DNA of 64,000 nucleotides, taken from the NCBI GenBank assembly GCA_944325865.1, contig CALVBS010000002.1:248001-312000 (forward strand), in the 5' to 3' direction. Each line of letters opens with the position of its first letter. The first letter of the stretch is position 1. This document shows, piece by piece, positions 165 through 47,382 of this stretch. A program made the translations under genes and the position numbers. The stretch comes from Candidatus Gastranaerophilales bacterium. GTDB lineage: Bacteria; Cyanobacteriota; Vampirovibrionia; Gastranaerophilales; Gastranaerophilaceae. The notes below the pieces were generated by a model, which saw only the letters and a list, made by a program, of their open reading frames with translations, ran no database searches and had not been told where the DNA came from.

Positions 165-383
165 CTAATCCTTAAAATCTAACAAATCCTTCGGTTCAAC
201 ATTCAAGACATCTGCTATAATTTTCAACTTTGATAAAGTAATATCTGTTTTTGCAGTTTCCACCATTGCAATAGTTGAGCGGGAAATTCCGTTTACATCT
301 AAAAAATCATCCTGCTTTATATGTTTTTCTTTTCTTAAACGCTTAAGATTCTTTGCAAATTTTTGTAAAAAGCCCTTGTCCAT
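165..383 (-). CDS. Small XRE/Cro-CI family HTH regulator, divergent from a pilin-like gene
   Basis: A 72-residue protein that is almost entirely one XRE helix-turn-helix (about residues 8-65): KNLKRLRKEKHIKQDDF, then SRSTIAMVETAKTDITLSKL. It is predicted to be a cytoplasmic DNA-binding protein with no added sensor domain. The frame can be extended upstream to position 470, but that would overlap the divergent pilin gene at 451, and the MDKGFLQKF start matches the usual length of such regulators, so 383 is chosen; no strong RBS is visible. It lies 67 bases from the pilin-like gene on the opposite strand, and a direct repeat lies between them (402-410, 427-435). By analogy with single-domain XRE proteins it may repress itself and the divergent gene; that is inference. 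Confidence 0.85.
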   Translation of the reverse strand: MDKGFLQKFAKNLKRLRKEKHIKQDDFLDVNGISRSTIAMVETAKTDITLSKLKIIADVLNVEPKDLLDFKD

Positions 384-386
384 TTT

Positions 387-435
387 TTGATTATCAGCTA
401 TACTGACATTAATTAAAATCAATGACACTGACATT
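387..435 (+). promoter_or_regulatory. Divergent promoter region with direct repeats
   Basis: The 9-mer ACTGACATT occurs at 402-410 and again at 427-435. The first copy lies between a possible -35 (TTGATT, 387-392) and a possible -10 (TAATTA, 410-415, 17-base spacer); the second lies just downstream. The arrangement resembles the clearer operator/promoter in front of the pilin-like gene at 41915. Promoter matches are weak; the repeat itself is directly visible. Confidence 0.45.
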
Positions 436-450
436 TTAGAAAGGAATTTT

Positions 451-1161
451 ATGAACAAAAGAGCTTTCACCCTTGCAGAAGTGCTTATAACACTCGGTAT
501 TATAGGTATAGTAGCAGCAATGACTTTGCCTGCAGTAATTGCAAAATATCAAAAAGTACAATTAAAATCTCAATTAAATAAAAGTTATTCAGTAATGCAA
601 AATGCACTTCAAAAAATGCAAGCAGATACCGGAGTGACACCAAATGCACAAAATTTTAGCAGACAAAAATTTAAGGAAGAATATATTAAAAATTTTAATG
701 TTCTTCTGGATTGCGGGTTAGGCTCAACCGATGTAACAGATAAAGAAAATGCCCAAGAATATTGCGTAAACGAACAAACAAACCACGATGAAGGCGACAG
801 ACGCTATACAAAACATTACAAAACATATAATAAGAAAACTCAAATCGATAACACTCTATTAAATAACGGACAATTCGTGCTGAGCGACGGAACTTTAATA
901 TTAATTGAAAATTGGGATACCGGAAACCTATACATATCTGCAGATGTTAACGGAATAAAAAACTCTCCGAATATCTGGGGACAGGATTTATTTACATTTC
1001 AATTAATGGATAATGGGAAATTAATGCCAATGGGGATGCCCGGAACAAATTATCAGCCGGAACAGTTCTGTTCTAAAACTTCCAGCCATACCTATAATGG
1101 TGTTGCCTGTACATATTGGGCATTAACCGATGATTCTTTTTGGAATGTACTTACAAGATAA
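451..1161 (+). CDS. Type IV pilin-like (prepilin N-terminal domain) protein
   Basis: A 236-residue protein with a textbook type III signal: short basic leader MNKR, then AFTLAEVLITLGIIGIVAA, with the conserved Glu at mature position 5 and a hydrophobic helix up to about residue 27. This is the substrate type of prepilin peptidases, so the protein should be membrane-inserted and possibly assembled or exported by a type IV pilus/type II-like machine. None of that machinery is in this window. The C-terminal half carries a DGQFVLSDGTL-LIEN--GNLYISADVNG block and a GQDLF...LMPMGMPGT block that recur in the pilin-like protein at 41915. Four Cys sit in the variable domain (for example C104, C211, C220). 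RBS AAGGA lies before the ATG. It is divergent from the XRE gene at 165-383. Whether it is a pilin, pseudopilin or exported effector cannot be told. Confidence 0.85.
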   Translation: MNKRAFTLAEVLITLGIIGIVAAMTLPAVIAKYQKVQLKSQLNKSYSVMQNALQKMQADTGVTPNAQNFSRQKFKEEYIKNFNVLLDCGLGSTDVTDKENAQEYCVNEQTNHDEGDRRYTKHYKTYNKKTQIDNTLLNNGQFVLSDGTLILIENWDTGNLYISADVNGIKNSPNIWGQDLFTFQLMDNGKLMPMGMPGTNYQPEQFCSKTSSHTYNGVACTYWALTDDSFWNVLTR

Positions 1162-39982: not shown

Positions 39983-40129
39983 GAAATTCTCCTTTTGAAA
40001 ATATTATTTTTCATCTGAAAATTTAATTCCATTAAACAAAAGGATATATTTTATAAGAAAAATAATTAGATAAAAGAATAATGAAATTAATTGAAAAAAA
40101 GTTTATCTTTAACGTGAAAGGAGATTTCC

Positions 40130-40609
40130 ATGGAAAACGAAATCATATTAAGAGAACCCGAATTGTATTTTGACAGCATTCATCAGGAATTAAACAATTT
40201 TTTAAGAGATACATTCCTGACTAATGCGTTTGCAAATCCATTGAATATAAAAAAATCCTCAATCTGGCGTCCTGCTATCGAATTAAAGCAAAATGACGCA
40301 AATTATAAAGTAAAAGTCCAGCTTCCGGGAATTCCTAAAGAAAATATCAAAGTAGAACTGGACAATGATTTTATGACAATAACCGCAGAAACACACGAAG
40401 AAAAGGAAGAAAAAAAAGAAGAAGAAAAAAACGAACGCTTCCACACAAGTGAATTCCGCTACGGTAAATATCAAAGGACAATATCTTTTGATCAGCCGAT
40501 AAAAGCTGATGATGCAGCAGCATCTTATAAAGACGGAGTTTTAACAATAACAATACCAAAACAAAAAATTGAAACTTCGACAAAAAAATTAATTGAAATA
40601 AAAGATTAA
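40130..40609 (+). CDS. Hsp20/alpha-crystallin small heat-shock protein
   Basis: A 159-residue protein with an alpha-crystallin domain at about 43-145: WRPAIELKQNDANYKVKVQL, PGIPKENIKVELDNDFMTI, GVLTITIPK (I-x-I/V anchor nearby), with a charged EEKEEKKEEEKNE insert in the loop. ATP-independent holdase. RBS AAAGGAGATTTCC precedes the ATG. Single gene, followed by a candidate RNA. No CIRCE repeat upstream. Confidence 0.95.
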   Translation: MENEIILREPELYFDSIHQELNNFLRDTFLTNAFANPLNIKKSSIWRPAIELKQNDANYKVKVQLPGIPKENIKVELDNDFMTITAETHEEKEEKKEEEKNERFHTSEFRYGKYQRTISFDQPIKADDAAASYKDGVLTITIPKQKIETSTKKLIEIKD

Positions 40610-40613
40610 AAAA

Positions 40614-40760
40614 TTATTCGTACCTTAAAGCCGAATCCACCCGGGATATGATCGGGGAAATCCGAAAGCGAGGCGGTGGTGAACGAAGTCGGCCTTTGGT
40701 TCACTGAAAATGAGCGGCGGGGTATGAATAACCGGAGAAAAAGCCGATTGTATCCGGTTA
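40614..40760 (+). ncRNA. Candidate structured RNA with own terminator
   Basis: A GC-rich island in an AT-rich intergenic region between hsp20 (plus) and tdk (minus). A closing stem pairs TTATTCGTACC (40614-40624) with GGTATGAATAA (40721-40731), 11 bp with two G-U-type/shift pairs. Inside, AAAGCCGA (40628-40634) can pair with TCGGCCTTT (40689-40697), and CCACC (40638-40642) with GGTGG (40675-40679). A further stem AACCGGA / TCCGGTT (40730-40736, 40753-40759) and a strong terminator follow. No known riboswitch, 6S, tmRNA or SRP motif was recognised. Strand is inferred from the terminator. Confidence 0.5.
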
Positions 40761-40763
40761 AAT

Positions 40764-40800
40764 AAAGGCATGGTGCGTAAAGTTCCATGCCTTTTATTTT
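40764..40800 (+). terminator. Terminator after the candidate RNA
   Basis: AAAGGCATGG / CCATGCCTTT stem followed by TATTTTTTAC. It closes the structured region; nearly symmetric, so it may also end tdk transcripts on the minus strand. Confidence 0.8.
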
Positions 40801-40839
40801 TTACATATCAGCTTTCAAATTAACAGCAACAAACAGAAA

Positions 40840-41457
40840 CTATTTTACAAACGGTAAAATTTTCAAACCCTGTTTTGATTTTTGCGGATTATTGTCCGGC
40901 AGTTCATAGCATTTAATGCAGCGGGCTTCATAAGTTTCATCTCCTCCAATCATAATTAGCGGTGAATTTTTATCCGCAGGTTTACCGTCAATTAATCTCT
41001 GGGTTCTCGTTGCATGCTCACAGCCGCATTTCATACATACGGCATGGAGTTTATCCACTTTTGTCGCTATACACATCAATTCAGGCATATGCCCGAAAGG
41101 CTCCGCCTTAAAATCAAGCTCAAGACCTGTCCCGATAATTTTTTTGCCCTCATTCATCAATCTTGTAATGACCTTAGTGATATTCCCATCAAAAAATTGC
41201 AATTCATCAATGGCAATAACTTCATCTTCAGGTTTTACAAAAGTCAAAATCTGAATTGAATGTTTAACTTTTATGGCATCAAGCCATAAACCGTTACGGG
41301 ACTCAATATAATCTCCCTTAGCCCTTGTATCAACATCAGGTGAAATGACCTTAACCTTCTTCTTTGCAATAATACAGCGTCTTACACGTCTCAAAAGTTC
41401 TTCTGTCTTTCCGCAGCTCATAGGGCCCGTAATCAGTTCAAAACTATAACCTTCCAT
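40840..41457 (-). CDS. tdk: Thymidine kinase
   Basis: A 205-residue type II TK: FELITGPMSCGKTEELL (P-loop), VIAIDELQFFDG (DE box), CMKCGCEHATRTQR and YEARCIKCYELP (two Cys pairs for structural zinc), PLIMIGGDETYEAR. It phosphorylates deoxythymidine for salvage. The start is placed at 41457, where AGGAGAGATACA precedes ATG; a longer frame to 41493 lacks an RBS. Full length for the family. Confidence 0.95.
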   Translation of the reverse strand: MEGYSFELITGPMSCGKTEELLRRVRRCIIAKKKVKVISPDVDTRAKGDYIESRNGLWLDAIKVKHSIQILTFVKPEDEVIAIDELQFFDGNITKVITRLMNEGKKIIGTGLELDFKAEPFGHMPELMCIATKVDKLHAVCMKCGCEHATRTQRLIDGKPADKNSPLIMIGGDETYEARCIKCYELPDNNPQKSKQGLKILPFVK

Positions 41458-41596
41458 TGTATCTCTCCTGTCACCCCTGATATTATTGTTCAAAAAGTTT
41501 AGATTGTATTTTCTACAATTTTTATTATATGACTTAATTTATTTTTTGAAAATTAAAAGTAACAAAAAGTTTACGTAAATCGACAAAATTCAAAAC

Positions 41597-41806
41597 TTAT
41601 TTATTAACTCTTTCATACACAAGTAAATCCTGAACACGGCAATCCAAAACATCACAAAGTTTATCAACTGTATCCAGTCCGAAGTTTGAATGCTTTCCGT
41701 TTATAATTTTGGAAATTGTTGTTGCATGAATTCCGGTTTCCCGCTGGATTTCAACAGCAGAAATATCTTTCTCCCACATTAATTCTCTCAGGCGAATTTT
41801 AATCAT
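41597..41806 (-). CDS. Small Cro/CI-type HTH regulator, divergent from a pilin-like gene
   Basis: A 69-residue protein: MIKIRLRELMWEKDISAVEI, QRETGIHATTISKIINGKHS, FGLDTVDKLCDVLDCRVQDLLVYE. Typical of YozG/HipB-like short XRE regulators. It lies 108 bases from, and divergent to, the pilin-like gene at 41915. The gap contains a consensus-type promoter whose -10 is flanked by TTGGCATATA-type repeats (41847, 41866 and inverted at 41872), suitable binding sites for this dimeric protein. Repression of the pilin gene is inferred. Confidence 0.85.
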   Translation of the reverse strand: MIKIRLRELMWEKDISAVEIQRETGIHATTISKIINGKHSNFGLDTVDKLCDVLDCRVQDLLVYERVNK

Positions 41807-41835
41807 ATAAACATTTTAATTATATATTTTTAGGA

Positions 41836-41881
41836 TTGACAAATCTTGGCATATACGCTAATATCATGGCATATATACCAA
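41836..41881 (+). promoter_or_regulatory. Pilin-like gene promoter with operator-like repeats
   Basis: TTGACA (41836-41841), 17 bases, TAATAT (41859-41864). TTGGCATATA (41847-41856) lies within the spacer, a near copy ATGGCATATA (41866-41875) lies just past the -10, and TATATACCAA (41872-41881) is the inverted form of the first. Sites in these positions would block RNA polymerase when bound. Confidence 0.75.
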
Positions 41882-41914
41882 TAACTTGTTGAATTAGTTA
41901 ATAGTAGGTTGAAA

Positions 41915-42637
41915 ATGAACATACAAAAACATAAAAATAAAGCCTTTACTCTTGCTGAAGTTCTTATAACACTCGGTATAATCGGCGTAGTTGCATCGAT
42001 GACTTTACCTGCACTTATAGCCAGCAACAGAAATAAACAGCTGGAATCTGCCTTAAAAAAAGAATATTCTCTTATATCTCAGGCTCTCGACTTTTATAAT
42101 GCCGAATATGGCGTAAGAATTACGCCTGAAAATACTTCTCATACAACCCTAAAAACTAAACTTCTCCCGTATTTCAAAATTTCCAGAGATTGCGGACGCG
42201 GTTCAGAAGGAACTGCTGAAGAACTAGAAAAAACATGTATTCCTAATTACGGAAATGAAGGAACCACAGAGAAAAGTTCCAAGACTTACACAAATTTAAA
42301 CGGTAAAAATTACATAGATTTAACAAGATTTGATGACGGACAATTTGTACTAATTGACGGTGCACTGGTATTAATTGAAAATGCTAATGCTGGGCAATTA
42401 TTTATTTCGGTTGACGTAAACGGTTACGGGAAACGCCCGAACAGATTAGGTCAGGATTTATTTATGTTTGAAATAAATGATAAGGGTGCATTACTCCCGA
42501 TGGGCGTAGCCGGAACTTTTTATTACGGAGAAAACAATGAATATTGCAATTCATCTTCAACAAACTCTATGAACGGGGCAGGCTGCACTTATAAAGCTCT
42601 TAATGAAAAAGATTATTTTAATAATTTACCTAAATAA
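41915..42637 (+). CDS. Type IV pilin-like protein
   Basis: A 240-residue protein with leader MNIQKHKNK, then AFTLAEVLITLGIIGVVASM: prepilin cleavage motif with Glu5 and a hydrophobic helix. The soluble part shares with the protein at 451 the blocks DGQFVLIDGALVLIEN, LFISVDVNGYGKRPN, GQDLFMFEIN and LLPMGVAGTFY, and paired Cys near the end (YCNSS, GCTY). The N-terminal DNA is also very similar to that at 451. The ATG at 41915 with upstream TAGG is preferred to a TTG two codons earlier. It is divergent from the HTH gene at 41597 and has a strong promoter. No pilus assembly gene is in the window; whether it is polymerised is unknown. Confidence 0.85.
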   Translation: MNIQKHKNKAFTLAEVLITLGIIGVVASMTLPALIASNRNKQLESALKKEYSLISQALDFYNAEYGVRITPENTSHTTLKTKLLPYFKISRDCGRGSEGTAEELEKTCIPNYGNEGTTEKSSKTYTNLNGKNYIDLTRFDDGQFVLIDGALVLIENANAGQLFISVDVNGYGKRPNRLGQDLFMFEINDKGALLPMGVAGTFYYGENNEYCNSSSTNSMNGAGCTYKALNEKDYFNNLPK

Positions 42638-42640
42638 AAT

Positions 42641-43459
42641 TTAGTGTACTTTATAGAAATCAGTTCCTCCGAGAACCTTATCTTTAAGCCGTTTTAAACC
42701 TGCTCCATAGAAGTATTTGAGCTGTTCAGGGAACTGTTCCGAAATATCAATCAAATACATATCATGGATGATAAACTCTTTTAACAAAAATACTATATCT
42801 TCATTTTTTGTCCACAAGACATCAGGATTTTCGTGTTTTTTGTTTTCAATTTTACCGAACAAACCTTCCTGATTATCGGCCGTAATAAATATCATCTTTC
42901 CGCCGAGTGCATACTCTATTTCTCTGCCGTTATAATGACGAAAGACCGTTCCGAAATTGCAGCTAAAATTGTCGTAGCCCACCATTTTGATATCCAGTCC
43001 TCTGTTATATGCGTCAAACAAATGTGATTCAAAATGTTTGAAATCTTGAGACCATATTTCCATAAAAATTTCTTTGCGTGCATTTTTAATAATTTCAATA
43101 ATTTTTTCACGAATTGAAAATTCGCCGTAAATACTCAAAATAGGCTCTGTATAATTATCTTTCACATTCGGAAGCTTTTTTTCAAGATAATCGAGAGTGG
43201 ATGTAATTTTTCTTCTGTATCTTTTGGTTAATTCCTTGGGTTTAATAGGTGTGTAGGTAATTGGTTTTGAGTTAGAGGATGTAACAATGCGAGCGGCTTC
43301 AAGAGCTTTTAATGTATCATAAGCTCTTGCCTGCGGAATATCAGCAAGTTTACTGACTTCATACCCAGTTGCAGGATATTTTTTCAAAAGAGCAAGATAA
43401 ACCTTTGCCTCATAGCTGTTTAAACCTAATTCTTTCAGATTTTCAACCAATTCATCCAT
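42641..43459 (-). CDS. TrmB-family transcriptional regulator
   Basis: A 272-residue protein. Residues 1-75 are a TrmB winged helix (LKELGLNSYEAKVYLALLKK, ATGYEVSKLADIPQARAYDT); about 75-110 a coiled linker (KRYRRKITSTLDYLEKKL); about 115-250 the TrmB C-terminal sensor/PLD-like domain (REKIIEIIKNARKEIFMEIW, RGLDIKMVGYDN). In archaea and some bacteria such proteins respond to sugars. Convergent with the pilin-like gene ending at 42637 (3-base gap). Target unknown. Confidence 0.85.
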   Translation of the reverse strand: MDELVENLKELGLNSYEAKVYLALLKKYPATGYEVSKLADIPQARAYDTLKALEAARIVTSSNSKPITYTPIKPKELTKRYRRKITSTLDYLEKKLPNVKDNYTEPILSIYGEFSIREKIIEIIKNARKEIFMEIWSQDFKHFESHLFDAYNRGLDIKMVGYDNFSCNFGTVFRHYNGREIEYALGGKMIFITADNQEGLFGKIENKKHENPDVLWTKNEDIVFLLKEFIIHDMYLIDISEQFPEQLKYFYGAGLKRLKDKVLGGTDFYKVH

Positions 43460-43507
43460 AAAATGATTTTAGCAGATTTCACAAAGTGACACAAGCATTG
43501 AAAAAAA

Positions 43508-44248
43508 TTAATAACTTACTTTAAAAGGATAATCATCAGGAATTTTCCAGTTGTTAAACTGAATAAGTGCTGTGCAGAATTGCTTATCCGCTGAGCCTTC
43601 GTCATGAGATCCTCCACCTTTACACCCTTTTAATAACGCTACTCTTGTACCGTCCCAATTCCATTTCCAAGGTTCAAAGCCTTTGTTATAGTGATATTTC
43701 CAACCTTGACTTGTACCGTCTGCAGGATAAAATTCAAAAGAAAACGAACATATTCCGTTGGAAGCGTCGTAAGCTAATCCATATTGCTTTATGCATTTAT
43801 CAGGTTTACCAGGATAAAACGTCCAGTCACGGGTATTTTTACCAGATGGCTTGAGGGCAGAACCATCCGGAAAATAAATTATAAATGAGCCGTCCGTTTT
43901 TGTTTCAATACTTGTAATTTTTAAATAAGGAGCCAGATATTTTTTGAACCATTTTTCTGATTCTGAAGACCCTGCAACCGGATTACCGTCTTTATCTAAT
44001 TCAGCCCCTTTCAAATCCTGATACCAGAATTTTTTGTCACCGTAATCAACTTCTGCCATTTTAACAGCCTGATTAATGGCAGAATAAAATTTCATCAAAC
44101 GAGTCTCTACAACTCTGTTATTATTTTTTTGTATTAATGCGGGCAGTGTTAATGCTGCAACAATTCCAATAATTCCAAGGGTAATTAAAACCTCTGCCAA
44201 TGTAAATGCATGTTTTTTTTGGGTAAAAGTAAATGGCTTATTTTTCAT
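43508..44248 (-). CDS. Type IV pilin-like protein
   Basis: A 246-residue protein: leader MKNKPFTFTQKKH, then AFTLAEVLITLGIIGIVAAL, giving a prepilin cleavage site and hydrophobic helix. The soluble domain differs from the two other pilin-like proteins here: FWYQDLKGAELDKDGN, KWFKKYLAPYLKI, IIYFPDGSALKP, Trp/Tyr-rich GWKYHYNKGFEPWKWNW and an end DKQFCTALIQFNNWKIPDDY. The start at 44248 follows GGAGGTTGT; 16 residues of upstream frame lack support. It is divergent from the XRE gene at 44376, and its promoter (TTGACT-17-TATAAT on the minus strand) lies in an inverted repeat. Confidence 0.85.
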   Translation of the reverse strand: MKNKPFTFTQKKHAFTLAEVLITLGIIGIVAALTLPALIQKNNNRVVETRLMKFYSAINQAVKMAEVDYGDKKFWYQDLKGAELDKDGNPVAGSSESEKWFKKYLAPYLKITSIETKTDGSFIIYFPDGSALKPSGKNTRDWTFYPGKPDKCIKQYGLAYDASNGICSFSFEFYPADGTSQGWKYHYNKGFEPWKWNWDGTRVALLKGCKGGGSHDEGSADKQFCTALIQFNNWKIPDDYPFKVSY

Positions 44249-44264
44249 ACAACCTCCTTTAAAT

Positions 44265-44305
44265 ATTATTATATGACATTTAACAGCATAAGTCAATATA
44301 ATAAT
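44265..44305 (-). promoter_or_regulatory. Pilin-like gene promoter embedded in an inverted repeat
   Basis: On the minus strand, TTGACT (plus 44291-44296), 17 bases, TATAAT (plus 44268-44273). The two boxes lie in the arms of an inverted repeat: ATTATTATATGAC (44265-44277) and GTCAATATAATAAT (44292-44305), matching except for one inserted A. A second palindrome ATTGC-CT-GCAAT (44336-44347) is nearer to the XRE gene. Confidence 0.75.
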
Positions 44306-44375
44306 GTAGTAATGCTTTTTACATCCATTATTATAATTGCCTGCAATATCTATAATTGGAAAAAAGGAGCATTTA

Positions 44376-44783
44376 ATGAGTTACTTGAAAAAAGGACTTG
44401 GCGATAACATCAAAATACTTAGAAAAATGAAAGGCATTACGCAGGAACAACTTGCAGGACTAATAGAAATTGACCAACGCCAGCTTGCCAGAATAGAGGC
44501 TGGAGAGAGTTTTGCAACAGCCGAAACTTTAGAAAAGATAAGTGAACATCTTAATGTTTCAATTAAAATTCTTTTTAATATAGAAAACAAAGAAAACGAC
44601 AAAATGACATTAGAAGTCATAGAAAATTATAACAATAACTACACAAAGTTAAATAATATAATAAAAAAGATTGCATCAAACAACAACAAAACCGAATTTA
44701 TGATTCTGGCCTCTGAAGCTCTGGACAAAAGGATTGCAAGAGAAAAATTAAAAGGCTACCTGCTTGGACTTGATTTAAAATAG
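44376..44783 (+). CDS. XRE-family HTH regulator with C-terminal extension
   Basis: A 135-residue protein. Residues about 6-65 are a classical XRE HTH (LGDNIKILRKMKGITQEQLA, RQLARIEAGESFATAETLEK). Residues about 75-135 are helical and polar (YNNNYTKLNNIIKKIASNNN, FMILASEALDKRIAREKLKG), possibly a dimerisation part. Start 44376 with AAAAAAGGAGC upstream. Divergent from the pilin-like gene at 44248; the intergenic inverted repeats are candidate operators. It is followed by the HEPN remnant. Confidence 0.85.
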   Translation: MSYLKKGLGDNIKILRKMKGITQEQLAGLIEIDQRQLARIEAGESFATAETLEKISEHLNVSIKILFNIENKENDKMTLEVIENYNNNYTKLNNIIKKIASNNNKTEFMILASEALDKRIAREKLKGYLLGLDLK

Positions 44784-44862
44784 CCTTTATGAAAATAAAA
44801 ACAATATAGCTAAAAGTTTATGTTTATGAAATAAGCCCTATAAGAACAGAGGATTTTTTAGA

Positions 44863-44941
44863 ATGATTAATACTGAATATCTAGAAAGATGCCTTGAAAC
44901 ACTTGAAAAAACGATGTAAAAAACTTGAAGAAAGTTATTGA
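44863..44941 (+). pseudogene. Remnant of a HEPN (HI0074-type) gene
   Basis: The frame starts MINTEYLERCLETLEKTM and stops at 44919; this matches the start typical of HI0074-type nucleotidyltransferase-substrate-binding (HEPN) proteins (about 130-140 residues). In another frame from 44912, RCKKLEESY and a stop follow, fitting the C-terminal end of such a protein. The simplest reading is a large internal deletion with a frame change, leaving only both ends. It directly precedes the MNT gene at 44944, the normal partner. Confidence 0.55.
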
Positions 44942-44943
44942 GA

Positions 44944-45246
44944 ATGGATAAATTATCCGTAAAACCTGAACATTTGAAAATGCTGACAGATATTTTCAAC
45001 TCATACTGCCCTAATGCTGAAATCTGGGCCTACGGAAGCAGAGTAAACGGTGATTGCCATGAAGGCAGCGACCTTGACCTTGTCGTAATTGATTTTCACT
45101 CGCCAACAGCAAAACTTTATGAATTAAGAGAACTACTCAGAGAAAGCAACATCCCTTTTTTGATTGATATAAACGAATTTAACACTCTCCCGCCTTCTTT
45201 TCAGGATGAGATAAAACTTAACTATGTTGTTGTTTATAAAAATTAA
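44944..45246 (+). CDS. MNT-type minimal nucleotidyltransferase (HI0073-like)
   Basis: A 100-residue protein: NAEIWAYGSRVNGDCHEGSD, LDLVVIDFHSPTAKLYELRE, SNIPFLIDINEFNTLP. Has the nucleotidyltransferase signature GSR-xG-x8-SDxDL and a later catalytic-type D (LIDINEF). MNT proteins pair with HEPN RNases as type VII-like toxin-antitoxin systems, the MNT protein inactivating the toxin by nucleotide transfer. Here the HEPN partner is destroyed, so this is a solo antitoxin or a reused enzyme. Start ATG 44944; a TTG at 44938 is an alternative. RBS weak. Confidence 0.8.
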   Translation: MDKLSVKPEHLKMLTDIFNSYCPNAEIWAYGSRVNGDCHEGSDLDLVVIDFHSPTAKLYELRELLRESNIPFLIDINEFNTLPPSFQDEIKLNYVVVYKN

Positions 45247-45315
45247 GAAATTAGTAGCAAAAAATTTCTTTTTTGTTTTTTATGATAATATAACTTTAAA
45301 AATAAGGGATATAGT

Positions 45316-47382
45316 ATGCAGATACAAAAATTAGGCTCTCCTAATAATAATATTTATAAACCAAAGTTAGCAGACAATTCATGGCAGATTGTATCTCAAC
45401 AAAAAGATGTATTCTTTGGAAACAGGAGAAAAACAAAATATTACGAGCAAACTTCCGTTAACAGTATTGAGAACATGGATATTGAAAATGCAGTAATCAA
45501 AAAGCCTAACATATTAACACAAACATGTAATTCCACATCAACTGTTCAATCTATAAATAATTCTAATATTACAAATATAAAAGGTTTTGATAACTGTATA
45601 TTATCTATAACAAACAATTCGACAATAAAAAATGCAGAAAATTTTAGTTATATTATATTAGATAGCTCCTCAATAAATACTATTAAAAATACTGAACATG
45701 TGAAAGCTAAATTAGGTTATTTACAAGACTATAATAATTTAAATACCTCAAAAATAAATTATGTTAATACAGGATATTTAGAAGCTGAAGAATTAAGCGA
45801 AATAAACGAAGCATATGCCAATTCAACAAACCTTGCTACCGGAGTAAAAATTATTAACTTAACTACTAATAAATTAAGCATAATTCCTCCTTCACCAGAC
45901 ATTGAATCGATATTACAAAAACGCGTAACTATTGAAAATGCTAATATAATTCTAGAACCTGTAAATAAGTTTTCTTTATATTCTATTTTTTCTAAAGATG
46001 AAGAAAGGGGTTCTGCCAATATTAAATTCGCCAAAATAAATAATCTCCTTTGTGATAGATTGTATTCAACAAATTCAATAATAAATAAAGCAAATGTTAG
46101 AGAATGTAAAAAAATTATTAGGTCACGAATTAATGAATTACGCACATCTGATTTAAAAATTATCAAGAGTTCACAAATTAATAAAGTAATAACATCATCA
46201 CATGAGTTTATATTCAACATAGACGAAAAATCAACTATAAATACAGTTGAATTTGAAAAGCCTAACGGGACATTAATAATAGAAAATAATGGCAATTTTA
46301 TTCCAAATACAAATGTAATAAATGGCACCAAAGAATATATTCTAAAAAATATTAAATTAGATAAATTTAATATTCCTAAAAATTTAACTGCAAAAAATGG
46401 AGTTGAAATTAATTTTCTTGAAGTAGAAGAACCAAATGCTGTAATAAAAATTATAGGTAATGCAAAAATAGATAATATAAAATTCAAAAATGGCGGAAGC
46501 GTGATTTTAGAAGATGATGAAAATGGAAAACACCCTGACATTAACAATATTAATGTTAAAAACGGTGAAATATTAAAAAATTTTGCATTAAAAGGTCTTG
46601 AAAAAGTTGCAGGAATGGAAGAGTTAAAACAGCAATTAAGAGAAGATTTAATTGAACCATTAAAACACCCGGAATTATACAAAAAATATGGTCTTGATGT
46701 AATAAATGGATTTTTAATGTACGGTCCTCCAGGTTGTGGTAAGACATTCATTGCCAAACAATTAGCAGAAGAAACCGGCCGATATTTAGTAGAAATAAAA
46801 CCAAGTAATACAAGTAGTTCTTATGTACATGAAACAGCACAACAAATTGCAAGAAAATTTTCTGAAGCAAAAGCTAATAAACCTTCTATTGTTTTTATAG
46901 ATGAAATTGAAGCACTTGCTCCTGTTAGAGAAGGCTTGGGTTCTGATGGTACAGCTGTAGATATTAATGAACAAGTAACTGAATTATTGCAACAAATTAA
47001 CAATAGTAAAGATTCAGATATTATAGTAATATGTGCATCTAATGAACCACAACGTATTGATAAAGCAATTAAAAGAACAGGAAGGTTAGATAAAAAAATA
47101 TTTGTAAGTAATCCGGATAAAATCACAAGAAAAGCCTTATTTAAACAACAATTAACAAATATATATACTGAAAAAAATATTGATGTGGAATTGCTTGCTA
47201 AAAATTCAGAATATTATACAGCTGAAGATATAAGAATGGTAATAAGAACTGCTGCAATTAAAGCTATGAAAGAAGATAGACCAATATCACAGGAAGATTT
47301 AGTAAATTCTTTAAATCTAGTTAAACCATCCTTATCAAAATCACTAATTAATGAGTACTATAAAAAGGGGGAAATGCAATGA
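45316..47382 (+). CDS. AAA+ ATPase with N-terminal repetitive (beta-solenoid-like) domain
   Basis: A 688-residue protein. Residues about 1-40 include a KDVFFGNRR tag. About 50-425 is an Asn/Ile/Ser-rich region with alternating hydrophobic residues in repeats of about 20-25 (SNITNIKGFDNCILSITNNS, TIKNAENFSYIILDSSS, INTIKNTEHVKAKLGYL), which suggests a right-handed beta-helix. About 427-688 is a classical AAA module: Walker A GPPGCGKT (470-477), Walker B IVFIDEIE (525-532), sensor-1 Asn576, Arg-finger region RTGRLD (587-592). So: an ATP-driven unfoldase/remodeller with an unusual binding domain. AT content is higher than in neighbours. RBS AGGGATATAGT. Its stop overlaps the start of the next gene (ATGA). 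Closest named relatives would be FtsH/Cdc48-type AAA modules, but no protease domain is present. Confidence 0.8.
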   Translation: MQIQKLGSPNNNIYKPKLADNSWQIVSQQKDVFFGNRRKTKYYEQTSVNSIENMDIENAVIKKPNILTQTCNSTSTVQSINNSNITNIKGFDNCILSITNNSTIKNAENFSYIILDSSSINTIKNTEHVKAKLGYLQDYNNLNTSKINYVNTGYLEAEELSEINEAYANSTNLATGVKIINLTTNKLSIIPPSPDIESILQKRVTIENANIILEPVNKFSLYSIFSKDEERGSANIKFAKINNLLCDRLYSTNSIINKANVRECKKIIRSRINELRTSDLKIIKSSQINKVITSSHEFIFNIDEKSTINTVEFEKPNGTLIIENNGNFIPNTNVINGTKEYILKNIKLDKFNIPKNLTAKNGVEINFLEVEEPNAVIKIIGNAKIDNIKFKNGGSVILEDDENGKHPDINNINVKNGEILKNFALKGLEKVAGMEELKQQLREDLIEPLKHPELYKKYGLDVINGFLMYGPPGCGKTFIAKQLAEETGRYLVEIKPSNTSSSYVHETAQQIARKFSEAKANKPSIVFIDEIEALAPVREGLGSDGTAVDINEQVTELLQQINNSKDSDIIVICASNEPQRIDKAIKRTGRLDKKIFVSNPDKITRKALFKQQLTNIYTEKNIDVELLAKNSEYYTAEDIRMVIRTAAIKAMKEDRPISQEDLVNSLNLVKPSLSKSLINEYYKKGEMQ

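Follow-up and report, generated by a model that had tools for sequence, protein, structure and literature searches.

The 64,000-base stretch of a Candidatus Gastranaerophilales genome analyzed here (the window) contains three genes for type IV pilin-like proteins, each divergent from a small regulator gene, and these would belong to a set of about 65 accessory genes of this kind in the genome, each with a switch of its own. Such regulators are one of two main switch types, the other being a homopolymeric tract within a short leader, and among 226 prepilin genes from three genomes none was found to carry both. We favor, with a probability of roughly 0.68, a reading in which the bacterium maintains a large accessory pilin repertoire, with each member OFF by default through a private switch and with the surface varying from cell to cell. 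That a genome of 2 Mb devotes around 70 genes and some 50 regulators to switched pilin-like proteins suggests that varying the surface is central to this bacterium. Gut Melainabacteria have not been cultured or are difficult to grow, and to our knowledge almost nothing is known of their interaction with the host.

The window corresponds to positions 248001-312000 of contig C2 in a 14-contig genome of 2,026,133 bases (99.45% complete; G000), for which detailed reading covered targeted stretches amounting to about a fifth of the total. It was compared with a congener from the same genus (G011) and with a member of another genus (G026), and all of the genomes are draft assemblies, one per species. 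The named genomes that contain relatives of the window pilin are Candidatus Gastranaerophilales MAGs, which are gut Melainabacteria, a lineage without photosynthesis that is related to the cyanobacteria.

Divergent XRE and prepilin genes

All three window prepilin genes have a small Cro/C1-type HTH gene as divergent neighbor, and 67, 108 and 127 bases separate the two starts, as an earlier note on this DNA had reported. The HTH proteins, which that note had placed in different subtypes, clearly differ from one another (72, 69 and 135 aa).

165..383, minus strand: cassette 1 XRE-type HTH gene (72 aa; PF01381/PF13443 over cut-off; start position chosen)
384..450: cassette 1 divergent intergenic region (direct repeats ATACTGACAT/ACACTGACAT, 25-base spacing, repeat p 0.024)
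451..1161, plus strand: cassette 1 prepilin gene (236 aa; PF07963 over cut-off)
41597..41806, minus strand: cassette 2 XRE-type HTH gene (69 aa; HTH_26 subtype; PF13443 E 1.3e-17)
41807..41914: cassette 2 divergent intergenic region (promoter plus overlapping repeats; direct repeat p 0.024)
41915..42637, plus strand: cassette 2 prepilin gene (240 aa; PF07963 over cut-off)
43508..44248, minus strand: cassette 3 prepilin gene (246 aa; DUF6613; PF07963 and PF20318 over cut-off)
44249..44375: cassette 3 divergent intergenic region (TTGACT-17-TATAAT promoter, pilin-directed)
44376..44783, plus strand: cassette 3 XRE-type HTH gene (135 aa; PF01381 E 1.5e-13)

The TTGACA-17-TAATAT promoter that the earlier note described in cassette 2 was found as stated, with its -35 element at 41836-41841, a 17-base spacer and its -10 element at 41859-41864. 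The repeats described around it are likewise present, including the inverted copy, but the positions first given were one base off and the second copy is not exact: TTGGCATATA occupies 41846-41855 and ATGGCATATA, with one mismatch, lies 20 bases away at 41866-41875. These repeats, together with the inverted copy at 41872-41881, overlap the promoter. In another cassette (C10:4754), whose XRE protein is 69% identical to that of cassette 1, the repeats ATACTAGCAA/ACACTAGCAA show the same 25-base spacing as the cassette 1 pair. A TrmB-type regulator gene (PF01978; 42641-43459, minus strand) is located between cassettes 2 and 3, and an Rfam scan over window positions 40000-45500 returned no matches.

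The pairing extends across the genome. G000 includes 72 N_methyl matches and one further prepilin gene recognized by motif, for a total of 73, as well as 80 HTH_3/HTH_26 loci. An XRE gene is positioned divergently within 500 bases of 44 of the 73 prepilin genes, as compared to a mean of 0.72 and a maximum of 5 over 5000 rotations. The outcome that the earlier note had named as refuting, no genome-wide enrichment of XRE genes beside prepilin genes, is thereby contradicted by a wide margin. Because the rotation null falls so far below the observed count, chance adjacency of the two gene types is rejected. When only the 72 N_methyl matches are considered, 43 have an XRE gene no more than 500 bases away, and the arrangement is divergent in all 43. 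Profiles built from the cassette regulators themselves, which included a second HTH subtype mostly missed by Pfam and matching the Cro/C1 HTH domain only in part, increase the number of G000 prepilin genes with a divergent regulator partner to 52 of 73. The analysis thus confirms that XRE-prepilin pairing is real and larger than first claimed. Duplication of a single cassette was also ruled out, as G000 shows no correlation between XRE identity and pilin identity (rho -0.03). The anatomy fits the earlier idea of a pilin-like set in which each gene has its own regulator, but XRE genes are only one of the two main switch types, and the homopolymer half had been missed.

Small divergent proteins of other kinds were found beside two prepilin genes: the one at C2:81455 is just over the ParG ribbon-helix-helix cut-off, and the one at C2:156473, with no Pfam match, is AbrB-like by eye only. 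Separately, an orphan XRE gene at C5:163057 is divergent from a short ORF resembling a pilin C-terminal remnant and is probably a decayed cassette, while XRE genes at C1:296749 and C3:121416 are divergent from proteins that by eye resemble surface-polysaccharide enzymes.

Within the intergenic regions of regulator cassettes, an exact TTGACA is directed toward the pilin in 37 of 82 cases and toward the regulator in 3 of 82; upstream of G-tract leaders this element occurs once in 51. Among candidate operators, direct repeats with a spacing of 18-26 bases are over-represented in the regulator intergenic regions (mean z +0.87 and +0.90 in two genomes) and not upstream of G-tract genes (about 0). 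Inverted repeats, in contrast, are not specific to regulator cassettes and were dropped as operator evidence because G011 G-tract upstream regions have an equal excess; the operator proposed in the earlier note is thus backed in part. Promoter and repeat blocks are retained by orthologous XRE genes, also beside pilins that are not related. The overlap of repeats with a strong promoter fits repression, although an XRE protein may instead act as an activator of the adjoining pilin gene.

Homopolymer leaders and the exchange of switches

Thirteen of the 73 G000 prepilin genes, all of them without an XRE partner, have a run of 10-12 G in a short leader that is equipped with a ribosome-binding site, the run lying about 30 bases past the leader ATG. 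The genome holds 18 tracts of at least 9 G, and 13 of these are in prepilin leaders. In each leader a single length class fuses the leader to the pilin, and adjacent lengths usually reach an early stop; for example, the leader at C3:42930 is ON at 10 G, and its assembled length of 11 corresponds to OFF. Similarly, homopolymer leaders were identified for 38 of 85 prepilin genes in G011 and for 44 of 68 in G026 (38 G and 6 C tracts). The frame layout is that of a slipped-strand contingency locus for 13 of 13 genes in G000, 35 of 38 in G011 (three undecided) and 44 of 44 in G026. Furthermore, 94 of 95 genes of this class have an open pilin frame all the way from tract to signal, as compared to 22 of 190 for the other two frames; therefore, occasional translation of the fused leader is probable. 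Assembled tract lengths and ON/OFF states are consensus values that may be artefacts, and read as such the ON/OFF counts are 2/11 in G000, 1/34 in G011 and 4/40 in G026, or 7 ON among 92 decidable genes (P = 5e-9 against a chance expectation of one third ON).

Similar tracts also occur at other sites. A gene for a DUF4422 protein, probably a glycosyltransferase, at C3:126603 (L093) in G000 is preceded by a leader of similar type, in which a tract of 12 G leaves the frame open, and therefore the leader switch is not confined to pilins. Four more tracts of 10-12 G lie outside prepilin leaders in G000, at C3:138254 (L094), C5:202555 (L095), C3:58368 (L092) and C6:12885 (L096). Many G026 leaders contain TATAATAGTGATATGAAACATCACTAT between tract and signal, a sequence that combines a -10-like box and inverted repeat with an ATG in frame and may serve as an internal start or another control site.

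The two switches are mutually exclusive in all three genomes. Genes with a regulator, a tract or both number 52, 13 and 0 in G000 (Fisher P 2e-9) and 36, 38 and 0 in G011 (Fisher P 2e-14). For G026 the corresponding counts are 9, 38 and 0 (Fisher P 3e-4), with only G tracts considered and the six C-tract genes counted as lacking a regulator. Neither switch was found for 8 genes in G000, 11 in G011 and 15 in G026 (21 if the C-tract genes are included), and some of these are probably core pilins or pseudopilins.

Closely related pilins are found under different switches. For example, the products of C1:220814 (G tract) and C5:104566 (XRE), both in G000, are 93% identical in their C-terminal domains, and the similarity holds from the prepilin signal onward but not ahead of it. 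Similarly, the C-terminal domain of the cassette 3 pilin is 76% identical to a G-tract-controlled pilin in a congener, and a 75% relative of the window pilin outside G000 (L009) has an 11-G leader. Regulators are traded as well: among 41 pairs of regulator-controlled pilins whose C-terminal identity is 55% or higher, the XRE proteins are less than 40% identical in 31, and in seven cases XRE pairs that are 83-95% identical adjoin pilins only 19-39% identical. Four 61-63% relatives of the same window pilin (L010-L013) are accompanied by XRE genes just 16-22% identical to the window XRE. The regulators of L010 and C1:30772, which stand beside unrelated pilins (21%), are 77% identical, and their intergenic regions are conserved as well. 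On sequence comparison these pairs show that switch modules are exchangeable among pilin bodies. The junctions lie near the almost invariant signal codons, which suggests that the signal segment may provide the homology for exchange.

Proposed mechanism and alternative readings

Under the favored reading, each pilin would consist of a standard prepilin signal, cut by the prepilin peptidase of the genome, and a variable C-terminal domain. The window pilins have a type III prepilin signal with Glu at +5 and a hydrophobic helix, over cut-off for both PF07963 and TIGR02532. The genome encodes one prepilin peptidase match (PF01478, Peptidase_A24) and four T2SSE-type ATPase matches over cut-off (PF00437), and published Gastranaerophilales genomes are reported to have partial type IV pilus gene sets (PMC5877343). 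At one class of loci a divergent small XRE repressor would bind operators over a strong pilin-directed sigma-70 promoter, and it probably also acts on its own promoter. At the other, a constitutive promoter would drive a short leader peptide with 10-12 G around codon 10 (a C run in another genus), such that one tract length in three would put the leader in the pilin frame. Recombination would trade switch modules and pilin bodies at junctions near the nearly invariant signal segment. Cells of one population would then express different small pilin subsets on a common pilus or pseudopilus machine, with bet-hedging or surface variation as the outcome; this suggests that each cell is able to display a different set of surface proteins. 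A more specific form of this proposal, which we hold tentatively and at somewhat below even odds, is a one-gene-one-switch pilin code. Here private XRE repressors, possibly cross-repressing, and homopolymer leaders would be interchangeable OFF-by-default modules that recombine onto different pilin bodies, and out of 50 to more than 100 pilins each cell would express a small combination of its own. A protein repressor and a slippery DNA tract are unlike each other genetically, and their replacement of one another for one job also offers a natural experiment.

The strongest competing explanation, though an unlikely one, is that the XRE proteins are ordinary cue-responsive regulators, so that induction by host, diet or growth condition would be deterministic and random variation would be limited to the homopolymer class. 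Conservation is consistent with this: XRE genes are 83-100% identical between congeners at many loci, and promoter/repeat blocks are kept as well. However, the XRE proteins are short and no sensor or ligand domain is recognizable in them, some 50 independent sensors would be an odd provision for a single protein class, and the same pilin type alternates between XRE and tract control.

Somewhat less probable still is that the proteins are pseudopilins of a DNA-uptake or secretion machine, their diversity reflecting substrate or prey specificity or the avoidance of pilus-binding phages. In favor of pseudopilins, the prepilin signal has additional, below-cut-off matches to ComG/GspG-type models. 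The cassette 2 pilin was modeled as a long N-terminal helix with a C-terminal beta domain (mean pLDDT 80), and a Foldseek search of this model against the PDB gave no significant match, which is also compatible with a pseudopilin; in VIA-align the rows listed are mostly type IV pilins with weak Z, the best being 4.8 to FimA. Default-OFF switching would be equally favored by phage avoidance. Against these points, the combination of an invariant signal helix with C-terminal domains that vary fits exposed variable tips, and so does the restriction of the large expansions to a gut family: order-wide, with N_methyl genes counted up to 64 per genome, large expansions occur in that one family only, and patchily there, with 7-17 genes in other families.

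It is also improbable, and slightly more so, that the G and C tracts operate by transcriptional slippage or programmed frameshifting, giving a constant low output of every pilin and no heritable change in length. Tract length is rather uniform within a genome and sits one base off the open frame, with 41 of 44 tracts at 10 in G026 (ON mostly 11) and 30 of 38 at 11 in G011 (ON mostly 10). Free DNA slippage alone does not predict such uniformity, and transcriptional slippage thereby keeps some weight. However, the G000 tracts range from 10 to 12, and the minority of genes assembled as ON (2, 1 and 4) is as expected for reversible slippage selected for OFF; G tracts of 10-12 are moreover classic contingency tracts. 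It is very improbable that the cassettes are selfish elements in which an antitoxin- or phage-type XRE repressor carries the pilin as a passenger. Weak matches of the XRE proteins to RstR, Y4mF and PezA models, all below cut-off, would speak for this; against it, there is no toxin partner, the layout is divergent rather than operonic, and the partner is always a prepilin gene. A type II toxin-antitoxin assignment was likewise set aside, the HTH partner being a prepilin gene on the opposite strand.

Known systems and distribution within the genus

The individual components have precedents: Opa-type leader contingency, G-tract pili in Bifidobacterium breve and divergent Cro/C1 repressors are each known singly. 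Our search of openly accessible journal papers on Gastranaerophilales and Melainabacteria, which covered pilins and their divergence from XRE genes as well as phase variation and G tracts, found no such system described, although absence from these papers is not proof. The combination of two switches, its scale in a 2 Mb genome, the interchangeability and the family-wide reach thus appear to have no published counterpart.

In the Neisseria opa genes the repeat lies within the leader coding region. A typical gonococcal isolate has about 11 scattered opa copies (PMC3745409). As with opa, a scattered surface-protein family is equipped here with a slippable repeat in each copy that sets the frame independently; unlike opa, the products are type IV pilin-like, a run of G or C serves as the repeat, there are 13-44 copies per genome and most other members are under a DNA-binding regulator. 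G-tract slippage also switches sortase pili in B. breve (PMC9187656), similarly a gut commensal with pili turned ON and OFF by a G tract, but it has two sortase-dependent pilus clusters, whereas these Melainabacteria have type IV prepilin genes by the dozen and another kind of switch besides. A leader peptide likewise precedes the Pil1 pilus gene of Streptococcus gallolyticus, where the switch is reported to be leader-peptide attenuation and single-cell expression to be stochastic (PMC3894217). Pil1 thus involves an attenuation-like switch at one pilus operon, whereas here the leader and pilin frames are fused at many loci.

Divergent autoregulated Cro/C1-type repressors include phage CI/Cro, RstR and HipB-type proteins. 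The cassettes resemble these in having a small XRE protein divergent from its presumed target, with sites in the common intergenic region, and differ in that about 50 different ones occur per genome, nearly each with a different pilin, and are interchangeable with a homopolymer switch. Neisseria pilE/pilS comprises one expression locus and promoterless silent copies. This pilin antigenic variation system (PMC11868660) shares with the genes described here a conserved N-terminal pilin segment, a variable C-terminal part and mosaic genes. Gene conversion of the pilE/pilS kind was nevertheless rejected: most copies here are full-length ORFs with their own start and with promoter-like sites upstream of both switch classes, and the switch is exchanged as well as the pilin body.

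The size of the repertoire varies within the genus. Same-genus relatives have 49-150 N_methyl genes, except for G005 and G008 with 8 and 4, and HTH_3 genes number 12 and 7 in the two pilin-poor genomes as compared to 40-92 in other members. One of the two, G005, retains many G tracts.
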